From a virus: a stretch of DNA of 41,407 bases. The notes under the pieces are model-generated. The model saw only the letters and a list, made by a program, of their open reading frames with translations, searched no databases and was not told the DNA's origin. The stretch lies in the IMG/VR virus record IMGVR_UViG_3300031976_001313, positions 1-41,407 of that record; one strand, written 5' to 3'. Shown one piece after another: positions 987 through 40,143 of this stretch. Every line of letters starts with the position of its first letter. The stretch's first letter is position 1. The translations under genes were made by a program, and so were the position numbers.

Positions 987-1009
987 TGGCGGAGGGGGAG
1001 GGATTCGAA
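987..1009 (-). other. Prophage left attachment site: 3' end of a tRNA-Ser
   Basis: Read on the minus strand, the sequence is TTCGAAT CCCTC CCCCTCC G CCA: T-loop, 3' half of the T-stem, 3' half of the acceptor stem, discriminator G and encoded CCA. The G-CCA end and acceptor type match serine tRNAs. Further upstream on that strand the 5' half of the T-stem is absent, so only the tail of the tRNA is here, as expected when a phage recombines into the 3' end of a tRNA. The intact tRNA is predicted just right of the integrase, beyond 41407. Confidence 0.75.
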
Positions 1010-1171
1010 ACCACACCCACAGGCCTTTAGTTACTTAACCTACTGATTTATAAAGCACACACATGGTCATTCTCAGATATTTCATTCCCAGCATGTTCCC
1101 TAGCTTTTTTACAGAATCACCCATGACGCGTGCGTGTGCGCATCGTATGCGAGGGATACTTCAGAATGTTT
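1010..1171. other. Prophage end without a recognisable gene
   Basis: Stretch between the att core and the iteron region. It holds no credible ORF, only an alternating purine/pyrimidine patch (CGTGCGTGTGCGCAT) near 1129. Integrase arm sites could be here, but I see no clear repeat. Confidence 0.4.
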
Positions 1172-1477
1172 GGGGGTCTCGGAAAAAGGTAATAAAGGTA
1201 ACCAATCTCGAAAATATACACTAACCTGCTGAAATACATGTAATTAAAACAGTCGTTCAAAAGGTAATAAAAAGGTGATCAATAGGTAACCACATTACCT
1301 TTTAAATAGGTAAATTCTTGTTTTTATAAAACCTAATATTTTCAGCAACTTACTCAAAGATTACCTTTTAGATCACCTTTTATTACCTTTTAGAGGTAAC
1401 CTTAAAAACAAATAAAAACAAAAACTTATAGGCGATAAACAGCCAAATCACCCAGATTACCTTTTTCCGAGAACCCC
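1172..1477. repeat. Iteron region inside a 22-bp inverted repeat; candidate origin or attP arm region
   Basis: The outer arms 1172-1193 and 1456-1477 are inverted copies matching at 21 of 22 positions. Inside and overlapping them are eleven GGTRAY hexamers: forward at 1188, 1197, 1263, 1274, 1285 and 1395, reverse at 1294, 1360, 1372, 1382 and 1456. The forward triplet at 1263/1274/1285 is spaced 11 bp. The reverse triplet at 1360/1372/1382 mirrors it, including a GGTGATC member in each. A very AT-rich core lies between the triplets. Iterons, dyad symmetry and an AT-rich core are the build of a replication origin. The position next to att also allows an integrase/excisionase arm-site array. 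Confidence 0.6.
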
Positions 1478-1704
1478 ATGCTTTCTGAGAGGTTACCCCC
1501 GTGGCCTCCTTGTCTGGGGTGACTCCATTAAATTCGCAAGATTCCGCATGAGAAAGCGCGCGTGTAACAAGGCCATAAAGCTCAGTACCGGCGCGGCTTG
1601 GTAGCTAGTGCATGGGTGCATAAAAACACACAGGTTTAGCGCGCAGGCGGGGCGGGGAGTCGACGGCGCGGCTGGGGGAGGCAAGACTGTTTTGTATGGT
1701 CTAG

Positions 1705-13099: not shown

Positions 13100-13462
13100 T
13101 TAGGTGAGGTCGCTTAGCTCGACATCCAGCGCATTGGCAATGCGTGTTAGCACACTCAATGAGCCGCTCTTTTTACCTGCCTCTATTTCAGAAAGGTAAC
13201 CCTGGCTAATCCCAGCATTTGCCGCCAATTCACCCCTGCGTAGGCCACGGTATTCGCGGTACACCTTCACGGGTGCCACGCCGTCCAGCAGCGCATCCAC
13301 AACCGCTTCGGGAAACGACTCTTCACCGCGAGCCACCACCGCGTTGGCAGCGTCGATATCGTCCTGGTCTTCCAACCGCGCAAGCAACGCCTGGTACTCC
13401 TGCTCAGGCAGTACCACCATCCGCTCGCCGGTGGGTGTTTGAATAATCTGAGGTACGCTCAT
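13100..13462 (-). CDS. XRE-type antitoxin with Phd-like N-terminus
   Basis: A 120-residue protein. The C-terminal half is an XRE helix-turn-helix (YRGLRRGELAANAGISQGYLSEIEAGKK, about residues 68-100). The N-terminal part (ERMVVLPEQEYQALLARLED) looks like a Phd/YefM-type segment followed by an acidic linker. It is downstream of a RelE-type toxin in the same transcript. It should neutralise the toxin and bind the AGCTAAAA palindrome at 13792 to autoregulate the operon. Confidence 0.8.
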   Translation of the reverse strand: MSVPQIIQTPTGERMVVLPEQEYQALLARLEDQDDIDAANAVVARGEESFPEAVVDALLDGVAPVKVYREYRGLRRGELAANAGISQGYLSEIEAGKKSGSLSVLTRIANALDVELSDLT

Positions 13463-13500
13463 GTAGCCTCCTGTTAAGTTACTGGTGCGCTATGGGTGCT

Positions 13501-13761
13501 TTATTGATAAACGCCGCCACGGGCACCGATGTTAATGATGTCCAACACATCGCCGCGTTCATCAATGATCACCCGCCAGTCGCCTACCCGCAGGCGAATA
13601 TAATCGCTCCCCTTCAACGCCTTCACATTATTGCGTTGGCTTTCCGGGTCTTCCGCGTAGGCTTTGATTTTGCCTTGTATGCGCTTCGACTCGGGCCGCG
13701 GCATTCGCTGCAGCACCTTTAATGCGCTTTTACGGTAAGTGATTGTCTTCATCACCATCAT
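13501..13761 (-). CDS. RelE/ParE superfamily toxin
   Basis: Up to 86 residues; the family N-terminus MKTITYRKSALKVLQRMP suggests ATG 13752 as an alternative start. The RelE fold signature is present: KSALKVLQRMPRPESKRIQGKI, then LKGSDYIRLRVGDWRVIIDE and a C-terminal INIGARGGVYQ. RelE proteins cleave ribosome-bound mRNA; ParE relatives poison gyrase, and sequence alone does not separate them firmly, though the RVGDWRVI segment favours RelE. The toxin precedes its antitoxin by 38 bases, HigBA-like order. It probably stabilises the prophage or acts in defence. Confidence 0.82.
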   Translation of the reverse strand: MMVMKTITYRKSALKVLQRMPRPESKRIQGKIKAYAEDPESQRNNVKALKGSDYIRLRVGDWRVIIDERGDVLDIINIGARGGVYQ

Positions 13762-22815: not shown

Positions 22816-25534
22816 TCTAAAGCTTGAGGTCATTCTCAACGCCGTCGACCGGGCCACCCGCCCGCTACGGGCGATCGATCGCGCCTCCCAGGGCGCGTCT
22901 CAAGCCATGCGCGAAAACCGTGACCGCTTAAAGCAACTGGAGGCCACCCAGAAGAACGTCAACTCCTTTCGTACCCTAACCCGGCAATCCACGGAAACCA
23001 CCACCGCCCTGCGCGAACAGCAGGAACGCATCCGCCGCCTCTCTCAGCAGATGCAGTCCCACCAGGGCGACACCACCGCACTGCGCGCCGAACGTCAGCG
23101 GGCCATTACCCAGGCGCGCCGACTAAGCCAGCGCTACGATGAAGAACGCCAGCAGCTGCAGCGGCTGCGTACCTCGCTGAAAAATAACGGCGTCAGCACC
23201 GAACACCTCTCCCGCGACCAACGACGGCTGACCAGTGAGATACAGCAGGCCAACACCGCCGTGGATGAGCAGCGGCAGCGGCTAAAACGGCTAGCCGAAC
23301 AGCAGCGCAATGCCGCCCAAGCCCGTGGCCGATACGACCGCGCCATGAGTATGCGCAACAACATGGCCGGTACCGGCGCGGGCATGATGGCCAGTGGCGG
23401 TGCCGCGCTATACGCCGGGGCACGGCTGCTGGCCCCCGGTGTGGCCTATGGGGAGTCGATGTCGCGGGTGCAGGCGCTGACCCGCATGGAAGCCGACGAC
23501 GAACGCTTCCAGGCCCTTCGCCAGCAAGCGCGGGAGCTAGGGGCCACCACCGCCTTTAGCGCCGGGCAATCCGCTGATGCCCAAGGCTACCTGGCCATGG
23601 CAGGCTTCGATCCGGAGGCCATTCAGGCCGCCATGCCGGATATGCTCGATCTGGCACTGGCCAACCGCACCGATCTCGCCCGCACGGCGGATATCTCCTC
23701 CAACATTCTCTCCGGCTTCGGGCTAGACCCCGCCGAGATGGGCCGCGTGGGCGATGTGCTTACCGCCACCACTACCCGGGCCAACGTCGATCTGGAAATG
23801 CTCGGCGAATCCATGAAGTACGTGGCTCCTCAGGCCCGCGCCATGAACATGTCGCTGGAACAATCCGCCGCCATGGCCGGGCTGCTGGGCAACGTGGGTA
23901 TTCAAGGCAGCCAGGCGGGCACCACGCTGCGCGCTATGGTCACTCGCCTGGCCGCCCCTACCGGCGCCGCCGCCAGCGCGCTGGGAGATTTAGGCGTCAA
24001 CGCCAAGGATGCCCACGGCAACCTGCGCGATATCCCCCGCATTCTCACCGATGTGGCCCGCGCCACGGAGGAGATGGGCAACGCCGACCGCGCCGCTTAC
24101 CTGAAGGACATCTTCGGCGAGGAACCCGGCGCCGGCATGGCGGAACTGATCGCCCAGCAAGGCAGCGCGGGCATCGAGCAGTTTGTCGAGATCCTCACCA
24201 ACGCCGCCGGTGAAAACGCCCGTGTGGCGAAAACCATGGCGGACAACATCGGTGGCGACCTCAAATCGCTCAAATCGGCCTGGGAAGAAGTGGGGATCTC
24301 GATCACCGACACCAACAACGGCCCACTGCGCGATCTCATCCAGAACGTCACCGCCATTACCCGTGGCGTAGGCCGCTGGATCAATGAAAACCCTCGGCTC
24401 GCCGGTACCATCGCCAAGGTGGCCGCCATTCTGGCCGTGCTGGTCACCGCGGGCGGTGCACTAACGTTGATGCTCGCCTCCATCCTCGGCCCCATTGCCA
24501 TGGTGCGCTACGGTATGGCTTTGGTCGGCCCGCAGATCCTCATGGCGGGCAAAGCGTTCCTGTGGCTGGGCGGCGTATTCCGCACGGTGTCGATGTTCCT
24601 GCTCGCCAACCCCATCGGCGTGGCCATCGCCGCGATCGCCGCCGCGGCTTATCTGATCTACCGCTACTGGGAACCCATCAAAGCCTTTTTCCTGGGGCTG
24701 TGGCAGCAGGTGAAAGAGGCGTTCAATAACGGCATCAGCGGCGTGGCTCAGCTGCTCATGAACTGGTCACCGCTGGGTCTGCTTTACCAGGGCATCACTA
24801 ACGCTTTAAGCGCCCTGGGCGTACAGATCCCCGAGCAGTTCAGCTCGCTTGGTAGCGCCATTGTGGACGGCATGATCGGTGGGCTAACCGGCAAGCTGGG
24901 CGAATTGCGCGAAAGCATAACGGGCATGGCAGGGAGCGTGCGTAACTGGTTCGCTAACGTACTGGGCATCAACAGCCCCTCACGGGTGTTTGCCCAGCTA
25001 GGCGGTTTCACGGTGGATGGGTTAATCAGCGGCCTGAGCAGCAAGCTTGGCGAGCTGCGCGACCGCGTCGTGAACATGGCGGGCAGCGTGCGTAGCTGGT
25101 TCGCCGATGTGCTGGATATCAACAGCCCCTCCCGGGTGTTCACCCAGTTAGGCGGTTACACGGTGGATGGTCTGAATAGAGGGCTGGATGCCCAGCGGGA
25201 CGAACCCGCCAGGCGCATTCAAGAGATCGCCCGCCGGGTGACCCGTGCAGGTGCCGGGCTGGCACTGGGTGCCGCTACTCTGCCCGCCGCCGCGATGCCG
25301 AGCATTGAGCAGCAAACGCCTATTCAGTTTGATAACCGGCCACCGCTGAGCGCGCCAAATGCCCAGGCGGGCGGCCTCACCATGGGCGATATCAATATCA
25401 ACGTCACCCCAGCCCCCGGCATGAACGAACAGCAGCTCGCCCAGTACGTGGCGCAGGAAGTGCAGCGCGCCCTGGCAAACGCCCAGCGCGACGCCCAGGC
25501 ACGCCAGCGCTCATCGATGCGCGACCTCGATTAA
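22805..25534 (+). CDS. T: Tail tape measure protein (P2 gpT)
   Basis: A 909-residue protein; P2 gpT is 815. GTG start, MARNLKLEVILNAVDRATRP, as in gpT. Residues about 30-175 are coiled coil. Residues about 190-215 are an Ala/Gly-rich apolar stretch. The region around 220-480 is the conserved phage tape-measure domain (GATTAFSAGQSADAQGYLAM, GIQGSQAGTTLRAM). Apolar helices follow near 540-620. Near 690-790 two tandem copies of about 55 residues repeat the motif SSKLGELRD...INSPSRVF.QLGG.TVDGL, which lengthens the protein. It sets tail length. Confidence 0.95.
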   Translation: MARNLKLEVILNAVDRATRPLRAIDRASQGASQAMRENRDRLKQLEATQKNVNSFRTLTRQSTETTTALREQQERIRRLSQQMQSHQGDTTALRAERQRAITQARRLSQRYDEERQQLQRLRTSLKNNGVSTEHLSRDQRRLTSEIQQANTAVDEQRQRLKRLAEQQRNAAQARGRYDRAMSMRNNMAGTGAGMMASGGAALYAGARLLAPGVAYGESMSRVQALTRMEADDERFQALRQQARELGATTAFSAGQSADAQGYLAMAGFDPEAIQAAMPDMLDLALANRTDLARTADISSNILSGFGLDPAEMGRVGDVLTATTTRANVDLEMLGESMKYVAPQARAMNMSLEQSAAMAGLLGNVGIQGSQAGTTLRAMVTRLAAPTGAAASALGDLGVNAKDAHGNLRDIPRILTDVARATEEMGNADRAAYLKDIFGEEPGAGMAELIAQQGSAGIEQFVEILTNAAGENARVAKTMADNIGGDLKSLKSAWEEVGISITDTNNGPLRDLIQNVTAITRGVGRWINENPRLAGTIAKVAAILAVLVTAGGALTLMLASILGPIAMVRYGMALVGPQILMAGKAFLWLGGVFRTVSMFLLANPIGVAIAAIAAAAYLIYRYWEPIKAFFLGLWQQVKEAFNNGISGVAQLLMNWSPLGLLYQGITNALSALGVQIPEQFSSLGSAIVDGMIGGLTGKLGELRESITGMAGSVRNWFANVLGINSPSRVFAQLGGFTVDGLISGLSSKLGELRDRVVNMAGSVRSWFADVLDINSPSRVFTQLGGYTVDGLNRGLDAQRDEPARRIQEIARRVTRAGAGLALGAATLPAAAMPSIEQQTPIQFDNRPPLSAPNAQAGGLTMGDININVTPAPGMNEQQLAQYVAQEVQRALANAQRDAQARQRSSMRDLD

Positions 25535-25546
25535 AAGGAACCCATC

Positions 25547-25990
25547 ATGCTCATGGCCCTCGGCATGTTCGTGTTTGAAACCCGCACCGTGCCCTACCAA
25601 GAACTCAAACGCATCACTGAATGGCGGCACCCCAGCCAATCCCGCGTGGGGCAGCGGCCCGCCTACCAGTTTGCAGGCCCAGGCGCGGATACCATCACGC
25701 TCAGCGGCACCCTACTGCCCACTTTCACCGGCGGGCGCTTTAGTCTTGATGAGATCCGCGACATGGCCGACCAGGGCAACGCCTGGCCGCTGGTCGAAGG
25801 TACCGGCCGTCAGTACGGCTTATGGGTCGTCACCCGCGTGGAAGAAACCAGCACCCACTTTTTCCGCGACGGCGCCGCCGAAAAAATCGAGTTCAACCTC
25901 ACGCTCGAGCACGTCGACGACGAACGCACCGACCTGATCGGCCGACTGGCACTGCCTGCCGCGGCACGCCTGGCGGGTGGCTACGTATGA
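25547..25990 (+). CDS. U: Tail protein U (P2 gpU)
   Basis: A 147-residue protein; P2 gpU is 159. The start MLMALGMFVFETRTVPYQEL is almost diagnostic. Further words are PGADTITLSGTLLPTFTGG and MADQGNAWPLVEGTGRQYG. It is a baseplate hub-linked tail protein, coupled to D by an ATGA overlap. Confidence 0.93.
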   Translation: MLMALGMFVFETRTVPYQELKRITEWRHPSQSRVGQRPAYQFAGPGADTITLSGTLLPTFTGGRFSLDEIRDMADQGNAWPLVEGTGRQYGLWVVTRVEETSTHFFRDGAAEKIEFNLTLEHVDDERTDLIGRLALPAAARLAGGYV

Positions 25991-26985
25991 ACGCTTACCC
26001 AAAGCCCAGCTACCGCATCACGCTGGATGGCACCGATATCACCCCACGCATTAACGGCCGCCTGATCAGTTTGACGCTACGCGAGCAGCGCGGCCTGGAA
26101 GCCGACCAATTGGATATCACCCTGGCCGATCACGATGGCCAGCTCGCCATTCCCCCACGCGGCGCCGAGCTGCAGGTAGCTTTTGGCTGGCTGGATGAAG
26201 GGCTGATCGACAAGGGGCGCTTTACAGTGGATGAAGTGCAGCACAGCGGCACGCCCGACCAGCTCACCATCCGCGCCCGTTCGGCGGATATGCGCGGCCA
26301 ACTGCCCGGCAAGCGCACCCTGAGTTGGCATGACGTAACACTGGGCGAGATCGTCACCACCATCGCCGGTCGCAACGAACTAGAACCAGTGGTGGCCGCA
26401 GCCCTCAACGGCATCCGCATTGGCCATATCGATCAAACCGATGAATCAGATCTGAATTTCCTCACCCGCCTGGGCGAACGGTACGACGCCATTGCCGCCA
26501 TCAAAGCCGGGCGTATGCTGTTCACCGTGGCAGGCGAAGGGCTCACCGCCAGCGGCCAAGCCATGCCCGCCATTACCCTCACCCGCCGCGATGGCGACCA
26601 ACACCGTTACAGCGTCACCGATCGAGACGCCTATAGCGGCGTAAAAGCCTACTGGAATGACACAAGAGGCGCAGAGCGCAAAACAGTGCTGGCTGGCAGC
26701 GGCGACAACGCCAAACAGCTGCGTCCCACCTACGCCACGGAAGAGGACGCCCTCGCCGCCGCCCGCGCCGAGTGGCAACGCATCCAACGCGGCCTGGCAG
26801 AGTTTGAGCTAACGCTGGCACTGGGGCGTGCTGACATACTGCCGGAATCGCCGCTAACGCTTAGTGGGTATAAGCCGCAAATTGACGCCACGGCCTGGCT
26901 GGTGGCGGAGGTGACTCACTCGCTAAATGATGGAGGGTTTGGGACGCAGGTTAGGTGTGAGGTGAAGGGAAAGCAGGAAGAATAA
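25987..26985 (+). CDS. D: Baseplate hub / late control protein D (P2 gpD)
   Basis: A 332-residue protein; P2 gpD is 387. The start MNAYPKPSYRITLDGTDITP overlaps the U stop. The words LREQRGLEADQLDITLADHD and KTYAT-like YATEEDALAAARAEWQRIQRG are conserved. It forms the gp27-like hub that carries the spike V. Two degenerate copies of the 3' end of a related D gene lie downstream (27489 and 27889). In P2 the activator ogr follows D; here it has moved to 36004. Confidence 0.93.
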   Translation: MNAYPKPSYRITLDGTDITPRINGRLISLTLREQRGLEADQLDITLADHDGQLAIPPRGAELQVAFGWLDEGLIDKGRFTVDEVQHSGTPDQLTIRARSADMRGQLPGKRTLSWHDVTLGEIVTTIAGRNELEPVVAAALNGIRIGHIDQTDESDLNFLTRLGERYDAIAAIKAGRMLFTVAGEGLTASGQAMPAITLTRRDGDQHRYSVTDRDAYSGVKAYWNDTRGAERKTVLAGSGDNAKQLRPTYATEEDALAAARAEWQRIQRGLAEFELTLALGRADILPESPLTLSGYKPQIDATAWLVAEVTHSLNDGGFGTQVRCEVKGKQEE

Positions 26986-27020
26986 AACACCTGGCATGGT
27001 TCAGTGCATTGCTTAAAACA

Positions 27021-27050
27021 ATGCCCCGGTCATCGATATGGCCGGGGCAT
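27021..27050 (+). terminator. Terminator after D
   Basis: Arms ATGCCCCGG / CCGGGGCAT with a 12-base loop, followed by TTTACATCT. It ends the FI-D late operon. Confidence 0.75.
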
Positions 27051-27086
27051 TTACATCTACTCAAAGCTAACTCTGTTATCAACAGA

Positions 27087-27356
27087 TTAGAGGTGTTGAT
27101 CGAGCCACTTTTTAACATCTAGCTGCTTGCGAGTATCACCAGGAAGTTCATCCCGGATAAGCTTTTCGCCCTTGTGCAAAGCGGAGATGGGGGCGGAAGC
27201 GGACAGCACCATGTTCAGCATGTAAAGCACCTCGTAACCCTGCTGGCGGTTAAAAAGTGTGCTGTCAGGCTCCCCGGTCACATGCGGGTCATCGCTAGGA
27301 GCAGCTGTCCAATCGTAGTGATCCAGGCTCATATTGGTTTGAGTAAAATTAGCCAT
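27087..27356 (-). CDS. Small unknown phage protein, 89 residues
   Basis: MANFTQTNMSLDHYDWTAAP, a polar N-terminus, a central helix GYEVLYMLNMVLS, then HKGEKLIRDELPGDTRKQLD. A good Shine-Dalgarno (GAGGTGC) precedes the ATG. It is convergent with D. I do not recognise the family. Its composition and ribosome site make it likely a real gene. Confidence 0.55.
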   Translation of the reverse strand: MANFTQTNMSLDHYDWTAAPSDDPHVTGEPDSTLFNRQQGYEVLYMLNMVLSASAPISALHKGEKLIRDELPGDTRKQLDVKKWLDQHL

Positions 27357-27488
27357 GTAGCACCTCGTTCATCCAATGAAATTGCCCCTGAAACATTGGG
27401 GCCGTTGCCGCCTCCTTCATGGCGACCCCTCCAGCGTAGCAAAGAATTTAATTTATGCTCGGCCCAGGCACGATAGACGAGATGAGGG

Positions 27489-27650
27489 TTAACGCTGGCA
27501 CTGAGGAGGGCAGACATCTCCCCCGAAACCCCGGTCACAGCCCAAGGCTACAAGCCAGAGATCAACGCCACGCCCTGGATCATTGACGAAGTCACCCACA
27601 ATTTCACGGAGCGGGGGTATACCTGCAGTATTAGGATGGAGACGCGGTGA
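27489..27650 (+). pseudogene. Remnant: 3' end of a second D-like gene
   Basis: A 53-codon open stretch reading LTLALRRADISPETPVTAQG, YKPEINATPWIIDEVTHN, FTERGYTCSIRMETR, then stop. It aligns with the last 55 or so residues of the intact D (LTLALGRADILPESPLTLSG, YKPQIDATAWLVAEVTHS) but is clearly diverged, so it comes from another P2-like phage and is not a recent duplication. No start or ribosome site is present. A GTG overlapping its stop opens a 16-codon ORF of doubtful value. Confidence 0.75.
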
Positions 27651-27714
27651 GTATTAACGCAGAGGTGTCGGTGGGAATTATCGGGATTGGCCCTTAACAA
27701 GCAACACCAGACAA

Positions 27715-27742
27715 CCCCCGGCCATCCGTTGGCCGAGGGCTT
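27715..27742 (+). terminator. Terminator behind the D remnant
   Basis: Stem CCC.CGGCCA / TGGCCG.GGG with one mismatch, loop TCCGT, then CTTTTGG. It probably came with the D fragment from the donor phage. Confidence 0.55.
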
Positions 27743-27888
27743 TTGGCATCCGTCTCCTTACAGAAAAGCTGATTCCTTCCAGCTCGCGCATCCAAGCGTC
27801 ATAGTCAGCTTGACAGATAAATAACCCCATTGATGTAAGACATCGCCGACAAGATTTGTAAGAGATCTCTTACAACTTTATGACTAGG

Positions 27889-27945
27889 ATCCTTGGCGAA
27901 GTGAACCACAATTACATTGAACGGGGGTATATAGAGACACGGTGA
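27889..27945 (+). pseudogene. Second, more eroded remnant of a D 3' end
   Basis: ILGEVNHNYIERGYIETR then stop. It parallels the first remnant (IIDEVTHNFTERGY...METR) with a short deletion before the end. Only 18 codons are left. Together with the first remnant it shows that this junction has been rebuilt more than once by recombination at the end of D. Confidence 0.55.
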
Positions 27946-28049
27946 GCGCACCGTAGCGTTGCCAGGTGGAAGGAAGGCCGCGCATTTCCATGACATAATG
28001 TTCAGCCCGTTTGTAGGAGGCGGCATGGGCATTATTAGAGGAACATGCT
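27946..28049. other. Spacer before the 56-residue gene
   Basis: About 100 bases. It carries the probable promoter of the small gene at 28050. A minus-strand ORF across 27805-28032 lacks a ribosome site and sits over the D remnant, so I do not call it. Confidence 0.3.
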
Positions 28050-28272: not shown

Positions 28273-28394
28273 ATTGCCGCAATCTTCTGGCGAAGCGTTA
28301 CCGCCACGCGTGCTCTTAGGCGACACTTTCACTATGGCAAAGTTTCGCTAAGTTGCAAACAAGTAATTTCCCGTTACGCAATGTAATGGCTCAC

Positions 28395-28769
28395 CTACAC
28401 CGCCCAGCACCTCGCCTGCCTCACCACCACCCCCTTAAACTGCTGCACGGTCACAAAGCACCCCTGCCCACCAGCGGTAGGCAACAACCGGCAACGGCTA
28501 CCCACGCGGTGGGATTTAAACAATCGGTACTCCCCTTCCACCTCAGCCACCACCAGATCCCCGTGGCCGAACGAACGCGCTTCATCCACCACCAGCACAT
28601 CGCCCTCCATCCACGGCCCGCCTGGGCGTGCGTCCTCGCTAATCTCCACCAAAAAGCAGCTGGGTGGAAATTTTCGGCTATCCATTTCGGCCACTGCCGG
28701 GTGCTCCACGCCCACCACTGCTGGCCCCAAGTAATTTACTCGCATGCTGTTGCCCTGTGCTTGCTCCAC
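28395..28769 (-). CDS. UmuD-like S24-fold protein lacking the catalytic serine
   Basis: Up to 124 residues (116 from the ATG at 28745). The C-terminal segment GDVLVVDEARSFGHGDLVVA...GEYRLFK follows the UmuD/LexA fold. Aligned without gaps on UmuD SGDSMIDGGISDGDLLIVD, this protein reads SEDARPGGPWMEGDVLVVD, so the catalytic Ser is Ala (residue 47). The Lys (85) is within one residue of its expected place. No clear Ala-Gly or Cys-Gly cleavage site is visible. It may therefore be a non-cleavable partner or mimic of UmuD'. It is divergent from umuC across a LexA box, whereas umuD normally lies upstream in the same operon. Confidence 0.75.
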   Translation of the reverse strand: MEQAQGNSMRVNYLGPAVVGVEHPAVAEMDSRKFPPSCFLVEISEDARPGGPWMEGDVLVVDEARSFGHGDLVVAEVEGEYRLFKSHRVGSRCRLLPTAGGQGCFVTVQQFKGVVVRQARCWAV

Positions 28770-28819
28770 ATTAAGCGACGTACATTAGCGGTTGCCTGTC
28801 GCTTTCCCTGCTGCTAATA

Positions 28820-28835
28820 CTGTATAAACAAACAG
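28820..28835. promoter_or_regulatory. LexA box between umuD-like and umuC genes
   Basis: CTG-TATAAACAAA-CAG fits CTG-N10-CAG. It ends 26 bases before the umuC start and lies 51 bases upstream of the umuD-like start, so it could repress both. Confidence 0.8.
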
Positions 28836-28861
28836 CATTTAACAAGGGTTATGGAGGCAAC

Positions 28862-30163
28862 ATGATAGGGCTGGTGGACTGCAACAACTTCTACGTCAGT
28901 TGCGAGCGGGTCTTTAACGCCAAGCTGGAAGGCCGCCCGGTGGGCATTATGTCCAATAACGACGGCTGTATTATCGCCCGTTCAGAAGAGCTGAAAGCGC
29001 TGGGTATCGAGATGGGCACCCCCGCCCACCAGGTGCGCCACCTGGTCGAACGCGGCGAGATCGTGTTGCACTCCTCCAACTACGAACTTTACGGCGATAT
29101 GTCCCACCGTGTGCAAGGCATCCTGGAACAGGAGACCGCCGGGGTAGAGCCCTACTCCATTGATGAGATGTTCGTGCGCATGGATGGCTTCGAGCCGGAA
29201 GCGCTGCTGGAGCACGCCAAATCCCTGCACGCGAAGATCCGCCGCTACACCGGCATTCCAGTGTGTGTTGGCGTAGCCGCGACCCACACCCTGGCTAAGC
29301 TGGCTAACCGCATTGCTAAGAAGCACCCCGGCTACCCCGGCGTGTGTATCCTTCACGCGGAAAGCGACGAAGCCAGGCACCTGCTGCAGCAAATCAATGT
29401 CAGCGATGTATGGGGCGTCGGCCGCCGGCTAAACGAGCGCCTGCAGATCCTGGGCATCAACACCGCCTGGGATCTTCGCGAAGCGGATGCTAAGCGCCTG
29501 CGGCGTAAGTTCTCGGTGAATATGGAGCGCACGGTGCTGGAGCTGCGCGGCATCAGTTGCCTGGAGATGAACGACTTTAACGAACCACGCCAGCGCATCA
29601 TGACCAGCCGCTCCTTTGGCCGTCCCACCTCACAGCTCTGCGACCTACAGGGCGCTATTCGCCAACACGCCCAACGCGGCGCCGAAAAACTACGCGAGCA
29701 AAAAAGCCTCGCCCGCGCTGTGCTGGTGTTTCTTAAAACCGACCGCTTCCGGCCCGACCTGCCCCAATACTCGCCCAGCCTGGCGGTAGAAATGGAACGC
29801 CCAAGCCAGGACACTCGCGACATTCTCCATGCCGCCCAGGAGGCGCTGCGCAAGATCTATCGTCCCAAATACGGCTACAAGAAAGCGGGCGTGATGCTGA
29901 TCGACCTGACCGACGAGAACCGCCAACAGCTCAGCCTTATGGACACACCGCAAACGGAAGAGGAACGCCAGCGCAGCCAAAAGCTAATGGCCACCATGGA
30001 CGCGCTGAACGAGAAGATGGGCAAGGGAACGGTACGCCTGGGACTGCCGGAAAAGAACGCCCCCTGGCACCTACGCTGCGCGAACCGTAGTCCGCGCTAT
30101 ACGACGAATTGGGATGAGTTGATGGTGGCGTATACGGATGAGGGGGTGGCAAAACGAAAATAA
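28862..30163 (+). CDS. umuC: Y-family DNA polymerase V catalytic subunit (UmuC)
   Basis: A 433-residue protein; E. coli UmuC is 422. The catalytic acidic residues are in LVDCNNFYVSCERVF (D6) and SIDEMFVRM (DE). Other words are MSNNDGCIIARSEELKALG, the helix-hairpin-helix region VWGVGRRLNERLQILGI, and a C-terminal DUF4113 segment. QLSLMD is a probable beta-clamp-binding motif. It performs error-prone lesion bypass. A LexA box lies just upstream, so expression is SOS-induced. As phage cargo it could raise mutation rate or help replicate damaged phage DNA. Confidence 0.93.
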   Translation: MIGLVDCNNFYVSCERVFNAKLEGRPVGIMSNNDGCIIARSEELKALGIEMGTPAHQVRHLVERGEIVLHSSNYELYGDMSHRVQGILEQETAGVEPYSIDEMFVRMDGFEPEALLEHAKSLHAKIRRYTGIPVCVGVAATHTLAKLANRIAKKHPGYPGVCILHAESDEARHLLQQINVSDVWGVGRRLNERLQILGINTAWDLREADAKRLRRKFSVNMERTVLELRGISCLEMNDFNEPRQRIMTSRSFGRPTSQLCDLQGAIRQHAQRGAEKLREQKSLARAVLVFLKTDRFRPDLPQYSPSLAVEMERPSQDTRDILHAAQEALRKIYRPKYGYKKAGVMLIDLTDENRQQLSLMDTPQTEEERQRSQKLMATMDALNEKMGKGTVRLGLPEKNAPWHLRCANRSPRYTTNWDELMVAYTDEGVAKRK

Positions 30164-30167
30164 CAAA

Positions 30168-31622
30168 TTAAAAAATTTCGTTTAACTTTTTTAATTTTTT
30201 ACCATTATCATGCAATCCCATATAAAAAACCTGTGAGTCACTCAAACTAACACCTAAAATTCGCAACATAAGCCTTTCCAACAAATATCTTAAATTATCA
30301 CGCGCTATAATAAGCATTTCAAAATCAATTAGAAAACCAGTGTCGCCATGCGTTAATTTATTTCTTATTGTTGATAGATCTGGCAAGTTACTCACTACCC
30401 CTTTTCTTGAATATAGAGGCCAAAGGTCGTCAAAAGGAACATGCAAATCGTCACAAACCTTAAAAAAACAATCTCTTAAAGATGTCCTGTTTAAACCAGC
30501 TAATTTTTGATAAAGATTCTCTCTAACATTAGCATTCTCTTCACCTTTCGTTGACTCATGCTTTTTCACTACCCTTCGCAAGTCTTTTTCCAAACACTTC
30601 CAGCTAAAACCTTCAATTACAAACTCATCATCGTTTTTTCGACTATAATTTAATATGACAGACTCTATTCCAGAGTAAAGGCTTAAAAAATCACTTTCAA
30701 CAGTTTTATGATATCCAGGGCTTAATGCCAAAACCCCAGCTCTAAAACTTTCTTTGTCTTCTAAAACACAGAAATTGTCATATACTTCTTTTAACCCTTT
30801 CTCAAAACGATCTCGATAAAAAAGCCCTTCTTCAAAGTCTCCTTTGCTTTCACTTTCTGGGAAAGCATAGTCGCCTCTATAATAAGCGCCTGCATAAACT
30901 TCATTATAGGCATCCCATCCTAAACACAAAGTTTTATGCCTGGAACAAAAAGTTACCATTAATAAGAAATCATCAATTATCTTCAGCAAATTTTTATTCA
31001 CATGACTGGCATCATTGATACTCGTATTGTTTTTCACTTTACCTATCAAGTTAGAAGTTTGAAGCATACCGTCTTTTGTTTTTTGATACCTAAACTGACG
31101 GTCTATAGTTATAATATCACCACTCACTAATTCATAACTACTTTCACTAAATCTTTTTACTTCAACACTACCATCGACATCAAAGCTCGGGAACAAAAAT
31201 GGGGAAATAGCTTCATTCTCGTTTAGCCAAAAATGAAATTCAGAATTCGAAGACTCACCATGTTCCTTTATTTTTCTTAAAACGTATAAATCTTGGGGTG
31301 CTCCAAAAATAACTTTCTCGGAAAGGACTCCTCCCCATCTTTTATCAGCTGCTCCTTTAAAATACACTTTAGGCGAGCTTATATACAAACCAACTTCACT
31401 TTCTTGATTCGCCATATGGTTTTTTAAAGAGTAAATAAAGCAATTTACAATTATATGAAATTCTTCGCTTTCTGGCCTCAGAACTATCTTGGGTTTCTCA
31501 TATATACTTCTTGGCAAATATAATTTACAAGGAACCTTAACTGAGAAATTCCCTACGTCTATCACAGACACAATAAAGTAATCTTCTTTAACACCTAAAA
31601 GGTCGTCATATTCACTACTCAT
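30168..31622 (-). CDS. HEPN-domain protein, ApeA-like architecture; candidate anti-phage effector
   Basis: A 484-residue AT-rich gene. The C-terminal region (about 300-470) is helical and carries a HEPN RNase motif R-X4-H in IRNKLTHGD (about residue 420). The N-terminal 200 residues are beta-rich. A long N-terminal domain plus C-terminal HEPN with RN...HG is the plan of ApeA-type abortive-infection proteins, which degrade RNA on infection. I cannot confirm family membership from sequence reading alone. It is convergent with umuC (4-base gap) and lies downstream of the two-gene module and cI on the same strand, but 197 bases separate it from the membrane gene, so it may have its own promoter. 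Confidence 0.65.
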   Translation of the reverse strand: MSSEYDDLLGVKEDYFIVSVIDVGNFSVKVPCKLYLPRSIYEKPKIVLRPESEEFHIIVNCFIYSLKNHMANQESEVGLYISSPKVYFKGAADKRWGGVLSEKVIFGAPQDLYVLRKIKEHGESSNSEFHFWLNENEAISPFLFPSFDVDGSVEVKRFSESSYELVSGDIITIDRQFRYQKTKDGMLQTSNLIGKVKNNTSINDASHVNKNLLKIIDDFLLMVTFCSRHKTLCLGWDAYNEVYAGAYYRGDYAFPESESKGDFEEGLFYRDRFEKGLKEVYDNFCVLEDKESFRAGVLALSPGYHKTVESDFLSLYSGIESVILNYSRKNDDEFVIEGFSWKCLEKDLRRVVKKHESTKGEENANVRENLYQKLAGLNRTSLRDCFFKVCDDLHVPFDDLWPLYSRKGVVSNLPDLSTIRNKLTHGDTGFLIDFEMLIIARDNLRYLLERLMLRILGVSLSDSQVFYMGLHDNGKKLKKLNEIF

Positions 31623-31819
31623 TTAAGGCTCCCAAAATGACACCAACTCAAAAAAAGAACAATAAAAAATAGCACCAAAACCAAACCCGAAAGAAAAAAT
31701 AACTTAAAACCAATTTCTTTTCTTTAACAGCAGCCTCAAAGTCTCTTAGCTGATTTCATGATTCCTGAACTCAACTAATAAGTAAAAACCTAACAAGGTA
31801 AAAATAAAAACAAAAATCT
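31623..31819. other. AT-rich spacer upstream of the HEPN gene
   Basis: 197 bases with long A and T runs. It has no ORF and probably contains the HEPN gene promoter on the minus strand; many chance -10-like hexamers make any single call unsafe. Confidence 0.3.
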
Positions 31820-32392
31820 CTAATAGTGGATTTTATCACCCAAATAATACAACCCATGCATAGTAGTAGTTAAAAGCTGAAAAAAGAAAAAGAAGAAAAC
31901 CAAAAAATAAGCAATTGAAACACCATGATTGATTAGCACAGCACTATTGCTTGAGTCATAAAAAACAAAACTCTCAGGTACAAATCCTAAGAAGGACAAA
32001 AAAATACTCTGAACAGTCAAAAAAGAGAAGAGCATGCATAGAAACCTCCTTTTTGAAAGAGGCATATCTTTATATTGAGTGTTTATCAGGGTTTCAATTT
32101 TAGGTGGGTTCTCCTTAGACATAGGCTTATCAATATCTAACCGATTGAAAGTAGCTACTGCTGCTAGCGCCGCTATAAAAAAACCAGGCAGGGCTGCTAG
32201 TAGAGTTGATATTTTACCAACTAATAGATATAGATTAAAAAAATCTATAGATAATAAAAAAACCAAAATCGATGTAACAGCCAACAGAATGGAAGGCACC
32301 ACCCAGTCATAGATATATTTGTCGGAGTGCTTAATAAATAAGTATGATATCGGCCTAGTAAGCTGATAAATTATTATTTTGTAGCTAACCAT
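31820..32392 (-). CDS. Four-helix membrane protein, unknown; partner of the 385-residue protein
   Basis: A 190-residue protein with four predicted membrane helices at about 30-50, 58-80, 117-137 and 154-176, the last containing seven Phe in a row or nearly so. A polar cytoplasmic loop (DKPMSKENPPKIETLINTQY) joins helices 2 and 3. Its start overlaps the end of the 385-residue gene by 8 bases, so the two are translated together. I do not recognise the family. A soluble protein plus a small polytopic membrane protein is a recurring build of membrane-acting anti-phage systems. Confidence 0.65.
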   Translation of the reverse strand: MVSYKIIIYQLTRPISYLFIKHSDKYIYDWVVPSILLAVTSILVFLLSIDFFNLYLLVGKISTLLAALPGFFIAALAAVATFNRLDIDKPMSKENPPKIETLINTQYKDMPLSKRRFLCMLFSFLTVQSIFLSFLGFVPESFVFYDSSNSAVLINHGVSIAYFLVFFFFFFQLLTTTMHGLYYLGDKIHY

Positions 32393-33542
32393 CGCACACC
32401 TCCAACATCTTCTTTAAGAAGTTCACGTTAACCTGATCATAGGAAGATTTTGGCCGAAAGCTCATACCAACACGGCGCTTCTTCACGTACTTTAAATTAC
32501 CGTCGTTTAAGTCATCATCAAATTCGATCTCAGTGGTGTGTGAAGAACCACTTGCATCTGTAAATTTAACACGAAGTTTTTCTAAATTATATTCTTTACC
32601 ATATGTAATATTTCTACCAATAAATTCTCTCCAGCTTTCAAGCTTTGACAAGTCTGCATCAAGCTGAATCGCTACTTCTCTAAACTCAGGAGGAAGGTCG
32701 TCTCCTATACCACGCATTTGGTTTGCTTCACCAACTAAACTGATACTGTTCATACGACCATTTTCTAAGTCTTCAAAAAACTGCTCTGAAGGGTAGCCAT
32801 GGAAATTAAATTTAGGCAAGATCATTCTTTTCTTTACTCTTCCTTTATTATCTAACAACCCTTCAGGGTGATCGATTGTGAAAGAGTCAGTATTTTCTTC
32901 AGCAACTAACTTACCTATATAGTCAAAAAACGACTTTAAAGCAGCTCCCTGCAGCCCATTTGTCCTTTCTACCAAACAAACCTGACGATCGCCTTTCTTT
33001 TCCTTAAAGATTACTATGTGAGCGGAATGGTCACCACCTTCGCTATGAGTAAGGTTATTTTCATTCCTTTGCCCACTTGAAATATCTCTAACCACACTAT
33101 GAGCGCTTTTTAAATTAGTAAAGTTTATCAGCAGAACAAAAAAATCTGGAAACTGTTTTACATCTTGAAGATAAACATCCAAAGTACTACTGTTAAACAT
33201 CCTACTAATAGCAGGGTCAGGCTCATTATCAGCGAGATCTACTGGCTCAGACTCACCTTCCTCTGAGATACTATTATCAACTTTATCTAAATTCTCGTCA
33301 CCTTTAACTACATATTTAGCTTTATTCTCTTTTAAAAATTCCTCCAGATAGTATTCATTCTTCCCAATAGCCAGCGGCTCGGAAAAAGATTTCTTCATTC
33401 CAGCCAATTCGTCAAGCATGACATTTATATCCAAAGGCGAGCGATACCTTATAGGATTACCAGAGTTATCCTTAATTCCTCGACATGTGCAATAAACAGC
33501 AATATCGTAAAAATGAACACTTTTATAGTAATTATGACGCAT
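32385..33542 (-). CDS. Unrecognised 385-residue soluble protein downstream of cI
   Basis: Starts MRHNYYKSVHFYDIAVYCTC. There is an acidic linker at about 85-110 (EEGESEPVDLADNEPDP), then a likely globular region with HIVIFKEKKGDRQVCLVERT and LQGAALKSFFDYIGKLV, and a basic C-terminus (KYVKKRRVGMSFRPKSSYD). No nuclease or nucleotide-binding motif that I can name is visible. It begins only 19 bases after the cI stop on the same strand, so it is probably transcribed with the repressor in the lysogen. It overlaps the membrane-protein gene. The AT-rich composition indicates transfer from another source. Confidence 0.65.
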   Translation of the reverse strand: MRHNYYKSVHFYDIAVYCTCRGIKDNSGNPIRYRSPLDINVMLDELAGMKKSFSEPLAIGKNEYYLEEFLKENKAKYVVKGDENLDKVDNSISEEGESEPVDLADNEPDPAISRMFNSSTLDVYLQDVKQFPDFFVLLINFTNLKSAHSVVRDISSGQRNENNLTHSEGGDHSAHIVIFKEKKGDRQVCLVERTNGLQGAALKSFFDYIGKLVAEENTDSFTIDHPEGLLDNKGRVKKRMILPKFNFHGYPSEQFFEDLENGRMNSISLVGEANQMRGIGDDLPPEFREVAIQLDADLSKLESWREFIGRNITYGKEYNLEKLRVKFTDASGSSHTTEIEFDDDLNDGNLKYVKKRRVGMSFRPKSSYDQVNVNFLKKMLEVCDG

Positions 33543-33561
33543 AATTTTCCCTACTTAAAAA

Positions 33562-34227
33562 TTAAATCACCCGCCCAATACGAATCTCACACCGCCCCAG
33601 AATCTCCACATCATGCATATCCTGCGGCTTGATCATTTCCGGCTGGTAATGGTCATTGTCGCTTATCAAGTACAACGCCCCGCCCGCCAGGCGCTGCACC
33701 CGTTTAATTCTTCGTTCACCACTCACCAACAGCAAAAACACCCCTTCCTGCTTAGGATCGCGGTTGCTGCGATCCACCAACACCCAGTCCCCATCGGCCA
33801 AGGTGCCGTCCATCGAATCTCCACGCACTTTAATGCCCACTACCTGGGCAGGGTCTAGCCCCTGCTCCGCCAGCTCTGTGCTGGAGAAATACAGCGTGGT
33901 TTTTACCGGCTCGCCTTCAAAGCTGCGGCCAGCGCCCGCTGCCGCTTCGATGTCATACATCTTCACCGGCGAGAGATCCGGCCCTGGTTCGCTTAATGGC
34001 AAGCCCAGCGGCTGTGACCCAGGAACCGAACGGTTTCCAGTTAATACGTACTGAACATCAACTCCCTGCTCAGCAATGACCGTTAGATAATCTGCTTTCG
34101 GACTGCGCTGACCGCCCTCGTAGAGCATTTGAGTCTTTTTAGTCACTTGGGCAAGGTCACCGAAGAGGGTTTGTGACAACCCTAGCCGCTCCCTTTCCTC
34201 TCTAAGCCTTTCACCCAATGAAACCAT
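33562..34227 (-). CDS. cI: CI-type prophage repressor, S24 self-cleaving
   Basis: A 221-residue protein. The N-terminal helix-turn-helix is at residues 5-65 (LREERERLGLSQTLFGDLAQ). The Ala-Gly cleavage site is in EAAAGAG (97-98 or 99-100). The S24 catalytic Ser138 is in VRGDSMDGTLADGDWVLVD and Lys175 is in ERRIKRV. This is a LexA/lambda-CI-type repressor, unlike the short non-cleavable C of P2, so induction should follow RecA activation. Candidate operators are GGAAACCGTTCGGT at 34251 and again inside this gene at 34022. It is probably the head of a leftward lysogeny transcript that includes the 385-residue gene. It is also a candidate target of the antirepressor at 12176. Confidence 0.93.
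   Translation of the reverse strand: MVSLGERLREERERLGLSQTLFGDLAQVTKKTQMLYEGGQRSPKADYLTVIAEQGVDVQYVLTGNRSVPGSQPLGLPLSEPGPDLSPVKMYDIEAAAGAGRSFEGEPVKTTLYFSSTELAEQGLDPAQVVGIKVRGDSMDGTLADGDWVLVDRSNRDPKQEGVFLLLVSGERRIKRVQRLAGGALYLISDNDHYQPEMIKPQDMHDVEILGRCEIRIGRVI
34022..34038 (-). promoter_or_regulatory. Putative CI operator copy inside cI
   Basis: On the minus strand the sequence is GGAAACCGTTCGGTTCC, matching the promoter site at 34251-34267 (GGAAACCGTTCGGTACC) at 16 of 17 positions. It falls in the linker-coding part of cI. Binding there could allow looping or a roadblock on cI transcription. Confidence 0.5.
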
Positions 34228-34243
34228 TTAGTCCTCACAACTC

Positions 34244-34273
34244 TTGACATGGAAACCGTTCGGTACCATTCTA
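34244..34273 (+). promoter_or_regulatory. Early promoter with CI operator and divergent cI promoter
   Basis: Rightward: TTGACA at 34244-34249, 17-base spacer, CATTCT at 34267-34272. Leftward cI promoter: TAGAAT on the minus strand at 34273-34268, with a weak -35. The spacer contains ACCG-TT-CGGT within GGAAACCGTTCGGTACC (34251-34267). A repressor bound there would cover the early promoter and lie just downstream of the cI -10. Confidence 0.65.
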
Positions 34274-34301
34274 TTTATGTCTTTCACTCTACAACACTAC
34301 G

Positions 34302-34326
34302 CAAAGGGAACCACTGCCATGGTCAC
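34302..34326 (+). repeat. Direct repeat, copy 1 (25 bp)
   Basis: Exact 25-bp match to 34938-34962, covering CAAAGGGAACCACTGCC and the following ATGGTCAC. It flanks the left side of the antisense zinc-ribbon gene. Confidence 0.85.
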
Positions 34327-34339
34327 TTCTGCCGCTATG

Positions 34340-34924
34340 TCACCGCTCCCACTCAGGGTCTTGGAACTCAACAAAGCCCCTGAGCGTTTCCATCATCACG
34401 GGGGTACCACACTGATGACACTTAAACTGAACAACCCCATCACCCGGGATTCGCTGCAATACCGATTTTTTATCGTTCTCGAAGCAGGTTGCGCAAAGGT
34501 GATGTCCGCTACCACGCTCGCTGCCGTGGTGCTTACGGCGGTACGTGGCGCCACCCGCGGGGGTTATGTATTCCTCGTAGCCAGCCTTCTCTTCGTGCCA
34601 CTGCTTAAGGCGCTTTATTTCATCGTTCAGTTGTATCTGCGCCTTCTCAAACTCAAGAGCGCTCAACTCCGCTTTGCGGATGCTGATCTGGATGTCATTG
34701 AGCTCTGCCTCAAGACGCTCAGCAAGAAGCTGCCGCTTCTTGCTAGAGAAAGCTGGGCTGAGTGCCTTCAATTGCTCCGCAATTTTAAGCAGCTCAATCA
34801 CGCGCCCGCTTACTTCTCCAATTACCGCGCTCACATCCAGCAAATCGTTAACCCCCTCGAATGGGCGACGGGCTGCATGGCTGAAATCCAGGCGTGCCGT
34901 CGTCGCTCCAGCACTCGTTAACAC
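34340..34924 (-). CDS. Coiled-coil zinc-ribbon protein, antisense in the early region
   Basis: Up to 194 residues from the GTG at 34924. The first 30 residues look non-native, and the GTG at 34834 (VSAVIGEVSGRVIELLKIAE, 164 residues) is a credible alternative. A long coiled coil (about 55-110, LEAELNDIQISIRKAELSAL) is followed by a C-terminal zinc ribbon with LCATCFEND and FKCHQCGTP (two CxxC pairs). The function is unknown; similar small phage proteins are often DNA- or RNA-associated. It lies between exact 25-bp repeats and is antisense to the early promoter transcript, suggesting later insertion. The plus-strand ORF over it is a shadow. Confidence 0.65.
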   Translation of the reverse strand: MLTSAGATTARLDFSHAARRPFEGVNDLLDVSAVIGEVSGRVIELLKIAEQLKALSPAFSSKKRQLLAERLEAELNDIQISIRKAELSALEFEKAQIQLNDEIKRLKQWHEEKAGYEEYITPAGGATYRRKHHGSERGSGHHLCATCFENDKKSVLQRIPGDGVVQFKCHQCGTPVMMETLRGFVEFQDPEWER

Positions 34925-34937
34925 CTATTTCTACAGC

Positions 34938-34962
34938 CAAAGGGAACCACTGCCATGGTCAC
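34938..34962 (+). repeat. Direct repeat, copy 2 (25 bp)
   Basis: This copy includes the Shine-Dalgarno and start codon of the gene at 34955. It is identical to 34302-34326, so the segment 34327-34937 lies between direct repeats as if inserted. Confidence 0.85.
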
Positions 34963-35284
34963 CATCATTGCCACCATCTTTGTACCGCCTACCACTCAGA
35001 CCACCCTGTTCCGCGGGGTCGAGGTGGAGCTTGAACGCTGCTCTGAACGCACCCGCCGCGATATCGAATTCGCATTGAAGCGCGGCACCAACACGCCTAA
35101 CCCGCTGGCGGATCTCGAAGCGCTGGAAGAGCGCACCACCGCCAAGGCTGTGGGCCAACTCGCTGCCACGATGCTGGCCCAGAACGCCTCTACCGACCAG
35201 GTGGAAGACGCCATTTGCGAACTGCGCACCTACATGGATGAACACTTCCTGCAGCGCAAGCTGGTTCGCCTTTACGAGCGCTAA
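34955..35284 (+). CDS. Early phage protein, 109 residues, unknown
   Basis: MVTIIATIFVPPTTQTTLFR, followed by a largely helical acidic/basic region (LERCSERTRRDIEFALKRG) and QLAATMLAQNASTDQVEDAI. A Shine-Dalgarno AAAGGGAA lies in the 25-bp repeat. It is the first full early gene on the plus strand. No domain is recognised. Confidence 0.65.
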   Translation: MVTIIATIFVPPTTQTTLFRGVEVELERCSERTRRDIEFALKRGTNTPNPLADLEALEERTTAKAVGQLAATMLAQNASTDQVEDAICELRTYMDEHFLQRKLVRLYER

Positions 35285-35329
35285 GCCGCCTTGTTCTAAG
35301 TCTTTCACTCTATTAAGGAAGCCTAACCC

Positions 35330-35536
35330 ATGGCCACCACTAACACCATTACCCCAAAGCCAATTTATGCCCCAAAAGGCTGCGATCAGCCTGTGATGAC
35401 CTACCTCACGGAAACCGAGTGTGCCGATCTGGAGCGCATTCAGGAGCTGGAAATGCGCACGAAGTCGGCCACCGCTCGCATGCTCATGCTGCGCGGCATC
35501 GCCCAGTACGACCAAGACACGCTGAATGCCGAATGA
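35330..35536 (+). CDS. Early phage protein, 68 residues, unknown
   Basis: MATTNTITPKPIYAPKGCDQ, then a helical half TETECADLERIQELEMRTKS. AAGGAAG precedes the ATG by about 11 bases. The leader repeats a 13-bp word, GTCTTTCACTCTA, also found in the early promoter leader at 34279. No domain is recognised. Confidence 0.6.
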   Translation: MATTNTITPKPIYAPKGCDQPVMTYLTETECADLERIQELEMRTKSATARMLMLRGIAQYDQDTLNAE

Positions 35537-35561
35537 CCTTGCCTGCATAAGGATGTTTGCC

Positions 35562-35765
35562 ATGTACCAGGACCCCAAACGTGTGCGCTCTCGTTACGCC
35601 GCTCTCAATTTGGATCAGTACGAGGCCCAGCTGATCGATGCCTTGGTCGATTACACCGGCATCGAACGGGCGTCGCTGCTGCGTCAACTGGTGCTGAAAG
35701 AAGCACTGGAGACGCTGGGCGTTGCTGATCTCTCTGTTAGCACTATGCCCCAGCAGGCGTCGTAA
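35562..35765 (+). CDS. Small ribbon-helix-helix-like early protein
   Basis: A 67-residue protein from the ATG at 35562, supported by AAGGA 9 bases upstream; the frame is open from 35526. The segment RYAALNLDQYEAQLIDALVD and GIERASLLRQLVLKEA has the strand-helix-helix look of a MetJ/Arc-type DNA-binding domain. It may be a Cox/excisionase-like or early regulator; this is not certain. Confidence 0.6.
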   Translation: MYQDPKRVRSRYAALNLDQYEAQLIDALVDYTGIERASLLRQLVLKEALETLGVADLSVSTMPQQAS

Positions 35766-35803
35766 AGGCAGGCCCTTTTGAGGGCCTCAAGGAGCACTGA
35801 AGT

Positions 35804-36007
35804 ATGGCTGACCAACCCGCCCGCAGCGATTTACGCCTTCCGCTGGATGACCAGCTGGAGGCGGTGCTGCAGCAGGTATGCGAACAGCAGGATTTGCAAA
35901 GCCTGGACGACGCCGCCGAGTGGCTACTCCGCAGGCGCTTACGCAAAGGCACCCAAGGGCTCACCGGCCGTGGCCGCGCCCTTTACCCCGTAGGGAGGAA
36001 CCAATGA
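35804..36007 (+). CDS. Early phage protein, 67 residues, unknown
   Basis: MADQPARSDLRLPLDDQLEA, then VLQQVCEQQDLQSLDDAAEW and a basic C-terminus LLRRRLRKGTQG. AAGGAGC precedes the ATG. It could be a ribbon-helix-helix-like regulator (RLPLDDQLEAVLQQV). The stop overlaps the start of the Ogr-like gene, so the two are coupled. Confidence 0.6.
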   Translation: MADQPARSDLRLPLDDQLEAVLQQVCEQQDLQSLDDAAEWLLRRRLRKGTQGLTGRGRALYPVGRNQ

Positions 36008-36255
36008 CCGCGTACAAGCACCGCATCCCCTGCCCGCATTGCGGCGAAAACATGGGCATTCGCAAGAGCCAGGGCCTTACACCGGTGTATCGGGTGGCCA
36101 CCGTGGAGTGCCGCAACGATGAATGCGGCTTTCGGGGTACGGCGGACATTGAGGTGACCAATACGCTCACGCCCAGTGACATCCCCAATCCTACGGTGAA
36201 TCTGCCCTTTTCGCCGCGGCTAATGCAAGCCCTGATGGCCCAAAAGGCATCCTGA
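36004..36255 (+). CDS. ogr: Ogr/Delta-type zinc-finger late-gene activator
   Basis: An 83-residue protein; P2 Ogr is 72. It has the exact Cys spacing C-X2-C-X22-C-X4-C of the Ogr/Delta family (C10, C13, C36, C41). The typical words are CPHCGENMGIRKSQGLTPVY, ECRNDECGFRGTADIEVTNT and the following TLTPSDIPNP. It should bind the palindromes at 5771, 13840 and 20467 and recruit RNA polymerase to the late promoters. In P2 the gene follows D; here it is in the early operon before the replication gene, so late transcription would be tied to early transcription. Confidence 0.9.
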   Translation: MTAYKHRIPCPHCGENMGIRKSQGLTPVYRVATVECRNDECGFRGTADIEVTNTLTPSDIPNPTVNLPFSPRLMQALMAQKAS

Positions 36256-36302
36256 ACGCCCCACCGGGCCGGTTCATTACCTAGTTGAATAAGGAGGCGA
36301 GC

Positions 36303-38969: not shown

Positions 38970-38980
38970 AGGAGCCCGTG

Positions 38981-39379: not shown

Positions 39380-39381
39380 CC

Positions 39382-40104: not shown

Positions 40105-40120
40105 TACCTTTCTGACCACC

Positions 40121-40143
40121 CCGCCGCCCAAGCGGCGGTTCTT
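40121..40143 (+). terminator. Terminator of the early operon
   Basis: Arms CCGCCGC / GCGGCGG around CCAA, then TTCTT. It isolates the integrase gene from upstream early transcription. Confidence 0.75.

Follow-up and report, generated by a model that had tools for sequence, protein, structure and literature searches.

A twelve-iteron candidate replication origin in P2-like phages that encode a TOPRIM-helicase replicase

Iteron origins served by self-loading primase-helicases are known. In phage P4, the origin (ori) carries iterons with a GGTRA core (GGTGAACAG), arranged as a triplet, one inverted site, and a pair; P4 also requires crr, a second element with iterons, located close to attP on the downstream side of the alpha gene. 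Both ori and crr are bound by the alpha protein. The origins of phage-inducible chromosomal islands (PICIs) always have two sets of iterons flanking an AT-rich region (PMC6092414), and the Rep protein of Staphylococcus aureus pathogenicity islands (SaPIs) uses its C-terminal domain to bind iterons, apparently in the form of two hexamers (PMC7581432). The origin of phage P2 is a nick site within the A gene, used with gpA. Here, we describe an array of GGTRAY hexamers at positions 1172 to 1477 of a 41,407-bp virus record (IMGVR_UViG_3300031976_001313, analyzed over its whole length and hereafter called the window), a P2-like Halomonas-type prophage with host DNA at its left end. The window shares a P2-type terminase and cos with P2, but its array is intergenic, and tblastn with three gpA queries found no match in the window, in agreement with an earlier note on this DNA. 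The array would be a variant of the iteron origins above, and comparison of related sequences makes it very likely that it is the replication origin of the phage; the TOPRIM-helicase replicase is the proposed binding protein. We base this reading on the association of the array with the replicase, the geometry of the array, and the relatedness of the initiator. The earlier note had proposed such an origin, and the replicase association and the geometry support it.

The array and its closest described counterparts

The array contains 12 GGTRAY sites (the earlier count was eleven) spanning 274 bp, with site-to-site spacings of 9-66-11-11-9-66-12-10-13-52-9. They divide into two halves of six sites that mirror each other across an AT-rich center, and each half consists of an outer pair, an interval of 66 bp (65 bp on the right), and an inner triplet with one inverted site. 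Other parts of the earlier description stand: the triplets, with spacings of 11-11 and 12-10, are mirror images about the AT-rich stretch 1300 to 1359, and the flanking 22-bp inverted repeats (1172 to 1193 and 1456 to 1477) match by eye at 21 of 22 positions and can be extended to 33 bp at 88%. The features of the array are as follows.

GGTRAY sites, by start and strand: 1188+, 1197+, 1263+, 1274+, 1285+, 1294-, 1360-, 1372-, 1382-, 1395+, 1447-, 1456-
1161 to 1193, plus strand: left arm of the inverted repeat (33 bp at 88%; inner 22 bp 21/22)
1188 to 1202, plus strand: outer iteron pair of the left half (GGTAAT and GGTAAC, 9 bp apart), conserved in relatives
1203 to 1262, no strand: left spacer (66 bp site to site), with a site of the integration host factor (IHF) type in relatives that is unrecognizable here (3 mismatches)
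1263 to 1299, plus strand: inner cluster of the left half (triplet at 1263, 1274, and 1285, with the inverted site at 1294)
1300 to 1359, no strand: central AT-rich spacer (66 bp site to site), proposed from its sequence as the unwinding region
1340 to 1352, plus strand: degenerate IHF-type site TTTCAGCAACTTA (2 mismatches) at the conserved position
1360 to 1400, minus strand: inner cluster of the right half (triplet at 1360, 1372, and 1382, with the inverted site at 1395)
1416 to 1428, plus strand: IHF-type site AAACAAAAACTTA (1 mismatch) in the right spacer
1447 to 1461, minus strand: outer iteron pair of the right half (GGTGAT and GGTAAT)
1456 to 1488, minus strand: right arm of the inverted repeat

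In 2,000 dinucleotide shuffles of positions 1172 to 1477, GGTRAY occurred 0.72 times on average and at most 5 times, compared to the 12 sites observed. Over the whole window, the hexamer occurs about twice as often as predicted (126 observed, 58.5 by shuffling), and its density is 12 in 306 bp at the array versus 0.93 per 306 bp across the window, where the iteron finder detected no second dense array. The iteron consensus AAAGGTAAT was derived from 1,522 sites in 138 related arrays; the hexamer was the search word, and only its flanking A-tract and the preference for A and T within it are new. Across the same 138 arrays, the central spacer has a mean GC content of 0.33. A search of Rfam gave only sub-threshold matches. 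A mini-transposon, brought to mind by the 33-bp terminal inverted repeats, was considered and rejected; a second copy is absent from the record.

One close likeness is to P4. The iteron word that the earlier note had quoted for the P4 alpha protein is present in the P4 record, where ori repeats are annotated at 9310, 9320, and 9331, inverted at 9353, and then at 9396 and 9406. The P4 sites thus have relative positions of 0, 10, 21, approximately 43 (inverted), 86, and 96, compared to 0, 12, 22, 35 (inverted), 87, and 96 in the right half of the window array, and in both the pair starts 65 bp after the last triplet site. By this analogy, the window array looks like a head-to-head pair of P4-type half-origins. 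The word differs, however (GGTRAY in the window, GGTGAAC in P4), and the P4 iterons are divided between ori and crr, whereas the mirror-image halves of the window lie at one place. Neither P4 ori nor crr contains an IHF-type site with one mismatch or fewer.

The protein proposed to bind the array links it to the SaPI origins, in which two sets of iterons likewise lie on either side of an AT-rich region. As the earlier note had stated, the phage encodes a TOPRIM/helicase replicase; Pfam identifies the TOPRIM domain, and the protein belongs to PHROG 1139. Its AlphaFold2 model has a mean predicted local distance difference test (pLDDT) score of 86. Residues 92 to 303 of the model match DnaG/T7-type primases, and residues 320 to 894 match Cch of the staphylococcal cassette chromosome mec (SCCmec; 5dgk, Z 24.4) and SaPIbov1 Rep (8tch, Z 21.4), both of them self-loading helicases that bind iteron origins. 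Judged by the fold of the model, the replicase may be a self-loading Rep-type AAA+ helicase, although a shared fold does not imply a shared function. The window primase is of the TOPRIM type and is fused to the helicase, whereas the SaPI/SCCmec counterpart is of the archaeo-eukaryotic primase (AEP) type; in addition, the carrier of the array is a complete P2-like phage, unlike SaPIs and PICIs. An hhalign comparison of the replicase with P4 alpha covers only the TOPRIM region (probability 72), and at the sequence level the replicase profile retrieved nothing useful from the PDB. In the Smp131 record (25406 to 27958), the C-terminal end of the replicase is only 17% identical over the last 95 columns, compared to 46 to 50% for the other large domains; this C-terminal loss suggests a frameshift in the record.

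Conservation of the array and its association with the replicase

The same spacing occurs in phiCTX, Dobby, Sirocco, and D14A, and in Smp131 with small shifts. Scanning IMG/VR and contigs from bacterial genomes with a 37-bp seed pattern comprising one triplet and its inverted site yielded 100 and 70 stretches, respectively; at each seed locus, we then checked whether the remaining eight sites stood where the spacing predicts them. Approximately 160 loci had at least 8 of the 12 sites in place, most of them 9 to 12, while 13 chance seeds, including contigs labeled Roseburia, Lachnospiraceae, Butyricicoccus, and Solidesulfovibrio, had just the four seed sites. Because the other eight sites split the loci so sharply, the array behaves as one coherent unit. 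No annotation of it was found in the records or in the literature covered, which did not include the original phiCTX papers.

The earlier note had suggested searching for the array in phages with homologous replicases and had held that conservation with the integrase type, rather than with the replicase type, would count against an origin. We found the array in such phages with its geometry kept, and it tracks the replicase. The replicase is encoded by 40 of the 43 array-bearing virus records of approximately 30 kb or more; the other three (29.9 to 30.6 kb) are perhaps fragments. Nine control phages (P2, Fels-2, 4LV2017, M16-3, Acica, KS14, FLC5, AP3, and Mana) have terminases 56 to 62% identical to that of the window, and gpA or an AP3/KS14-type primase; they lack the array, with a background level of 3 to 5 sites in any 330 bp. 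The terminase of the array-bearing phage Dobby, at 61 to 63% identity, is comparable to those of these array-less controls. Carriers of the array or its variant have five integrase families without appreciable BLASTP similarity to one another: the window/phiCTX type, the Dobby/Smp131 type, the ZY1 type, that of a Pseudomonas aeruginosa element, and that of ESSI2, which carries the variant array. One virus record (G046) combines a replicase 94% identical to that of the window with an integrase of the unrelated ZY1 type, and its DNA homology begins at window position 1123, past the att core, and spans the array and cos at 79%.

Some replicase carriers were less informative or differ in kind. The record of Bacillus phage vB_BpuM-ZY1 (OR820920; replicase 94% and terminase 98% identical) is bounded by genes, and the region from int to the first gene is missing from it. 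The assignment of this phage to Bacillus pumilus seems doubtful, with a mixed culture possible. Azospirillum plasmid p2 (NZ_CP039641), a phage-plasmid with HK97-type capsid genes, ParA, RepA, and a 47% identical replicase homologue, yielded no such array; the strongest repeats in it are those close to the plasmid's RepA gene. Separately, in the 47.5-kb circular record of P. aeruginosa plasmid p3 (NZ_CP077991), a P4-like satellite at 31110 to 41194 separates the integrase of a Citexvirus-type phage from the array of that phage; the satellite has TOPRIM and DUF927 genes of its own.

A second clade, including ESSI2 and records G063, G064, G068, G070, and G071, has replicases 44 to 49% identical and terminases approximately 43% identical. 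In these phages the array geometry is unchanged while the word is GCGATA/GTAATA, GTGATA, or, in ESSI2, CRTCACA; the central interval of ESSI2 is 55 bp, not 66 bp. Conservation in an alignment of this clade is limited to the array, the flanks being unconserved. A fixed geometry combined with a drifting word is what would be expected of an initiator whose DNA-binding surface changes. ESSI2 also has GTCCACA repeats from 26742 onward, right after its integrase gene; these are probable integrase arm-type sites and lie apart from its iteron array at 28388 to 28652.

The spacers are conserved in a further respect. IHF recognizes the consensus WATCAANNNNTTR, and in relatives each of the three spacers has a match to it whose position and orientation are constant. 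In 56 non-redundant arrays, perfect matches occur in 27% of left, 41% of central, and 18% of right spacers, compared to at most 0.3% in shuffles and 0 to 2% in flanking DNA. The putative IHF-type site at a fixed position in each spacer across relatives is new, as is the near-constant distance between the array and cos described below.

Genomic setting and competing explanations

The window contains, in order, the attL core, the array, the P2-type cos, Dam methylase, portal, terminase, late genes, repressor, replicase, and integrase. In the circular form of the phage, the array has attP on one side and cos on the other and is approximately 3.6 kb downstream of the replicase, with int and attP intervening. 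The relevant features are as follows.

About 987 to 1011, minus strand: attL core, the 3' end of a tRNA-Ser-like gene, recognized from its sequence; Halomonas phage vB_HboP_4908 splits there, and the phiCTX attP core is at the equivalent place
1084 to 1100, plus strand: TTCCCA-type repeat, a probable integrase arm-type site separate from the array
1646 to 1664, plus strand: P2-type cos (GGCGGGGCGGGGAGTCGAC), a motif also present in the cos annotated for P2 and AP3 and in the cohesive end published for Smp131
36285 to 38969, plus strand: replicase with a zinc region, TOPRIM primase, Cch/SaPI-Rep-like AAA+ helicase, and C-terminal domain; the proposed array-binding initiator
38984 to 39382, plus strand: small conserved open reading frame directly 3' of the replicase (PHROG 6694, function unknown), at the same position in relatives
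40241 to 41407, plus strand: tyrosine integrase of the phiCTX type

Three other gene pairs stand out in the window. Adjacent small genes in the host flank (1 to 661) resemble a HEPN/nucleotidyltransferase toxin-antitoxin pair, a probable RelE/antitoxin pair lies amid the tail genes (13100 to 13761), and the prophage carries UmuD-like and UmuC-like (DNA polymerase V) genes (28395 to 30163), as do relatives.

The array could instead be a set of integrase arm-type sites that help to build the recombination complex, given that it adjoins attL in the window and attP in phiCTX and that IHF-type sites are typical of attP regions also. This is extremely improbable. The same array stands beside integrases that share no BLASTP similarity, and Dobby-type integrases are present in second-clade phages with a different iteron word. 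Moreover, the word GTTCCCA separately flanks both sides of the phiCTX attP core and is also present in the Halomonas phage. Three genes and 2.2 kb separate the Smp131 array from the mapped attP, beside which the authors of the Smp131 study found other repeats. The earlier note was right that the array lies beside the attachment site in the window, but this adjacency is incidental, whereas proximity to cos is conserved in the main clade. That proximity is the basis for regarding the array as a packaging element, either a part of cos bound by terminase or a link between replication and packaging: in nearly all main-clade loci the cos motif is 364 to 432 bp from site 3, mostly approximately 180 to 200 bp beyond the last iteron, at a near-constant distance of approximately 185 bp. 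Related terminases without the replicase have no array, however, as the nine controls show, so the array is not simply a terminase site; in addition, no P2-type cos motif was found beside the array of the second clade. We consider a packaging element very unlikely. Plasmid iteron arrays also titrate initiators, and P4 requires two iteron-bearing elements, so the array might control the replicase or copy number, or act as a partition site, while replication starts elsewhere. The array is approximately 3.6 kb from the replicase gene, it has an AT-rich center between its mirror halves, and it is the only dense array that the iteron finder reported in the window; no ParA or ParB gene was noticed among the window open reading frames, although no systematic search was made. 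A control or partition role is very unlikely.

Several observations weigh against the origin reading. The near-constant distance between cos and the array is unexplained by origin function. The GC-skew check proposed in the earlier note gave the origin no support: no turn occurs at the array in the phages tested, and the cumulative extremes lie at least 3.5 to 5 kb away, with the maximum near the divergent late promoters, which supports neither side. The SaPI origin is directly downstream of rep, unlike the array on the circular phage. The IHF-type sites of the window itself are degenerate, with two mismatches in the center, one on the right, and an unrecognizable site on the left. Among replicase carriers, one (G053, replicase 58% identical) has other repeats in a different arrangement and another (G069) has no clear array. 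Finally, many replicase records break off at gene boundaries, which prevents an assessment of the array in them, so the reverse association can be counted only in part.

Proposed mechanism and significance

If the array is the origin, the replicase would bind the iterons, probably via its C-terminal domain, and, after the example of SaPI Rep, may assemble as two hexamers, one on each six-site half. The hexamers would melt the AT-rich center and load as helicases on both strands, and the TOPRIM domain would then prime replication of the excised circle without gpA. Bending of the 66-bp spacers by IHF would, in most relatives, fold the iteron clusters together. The working mode would be like that of the P4 and SaPI origins, with two P4-like half-origins head to head. 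In its most specific form, which we put forward only tentatively, the array would be a rigid twelve-iteron origin with two P4-type halves, each loading one TOPRIM-Cch-type hexamer, and three IHF-bent 66-bp spacers, whose geometry has been held over two clades while the word drifted. In the main clade, origin and cos would form one module with a fixed distance, perhaps coupling replication to packaging.

The array would provide a specific origin for a large group of P2-like phages that lack gpA, including the cytotoxin-converting phage phiCTX and prophages of Pseudomonas, Xanthomonas, Stenotrophomonas, Halomonas, Ralstonia, and Cupriavidus. It would also tie these phages mechanistically to the P4 and SaPI satellites. 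Because the word has changed while the architecture was kept, the arrays would form a natural series useful for studying how self-loading helicases recognize and open their origins.
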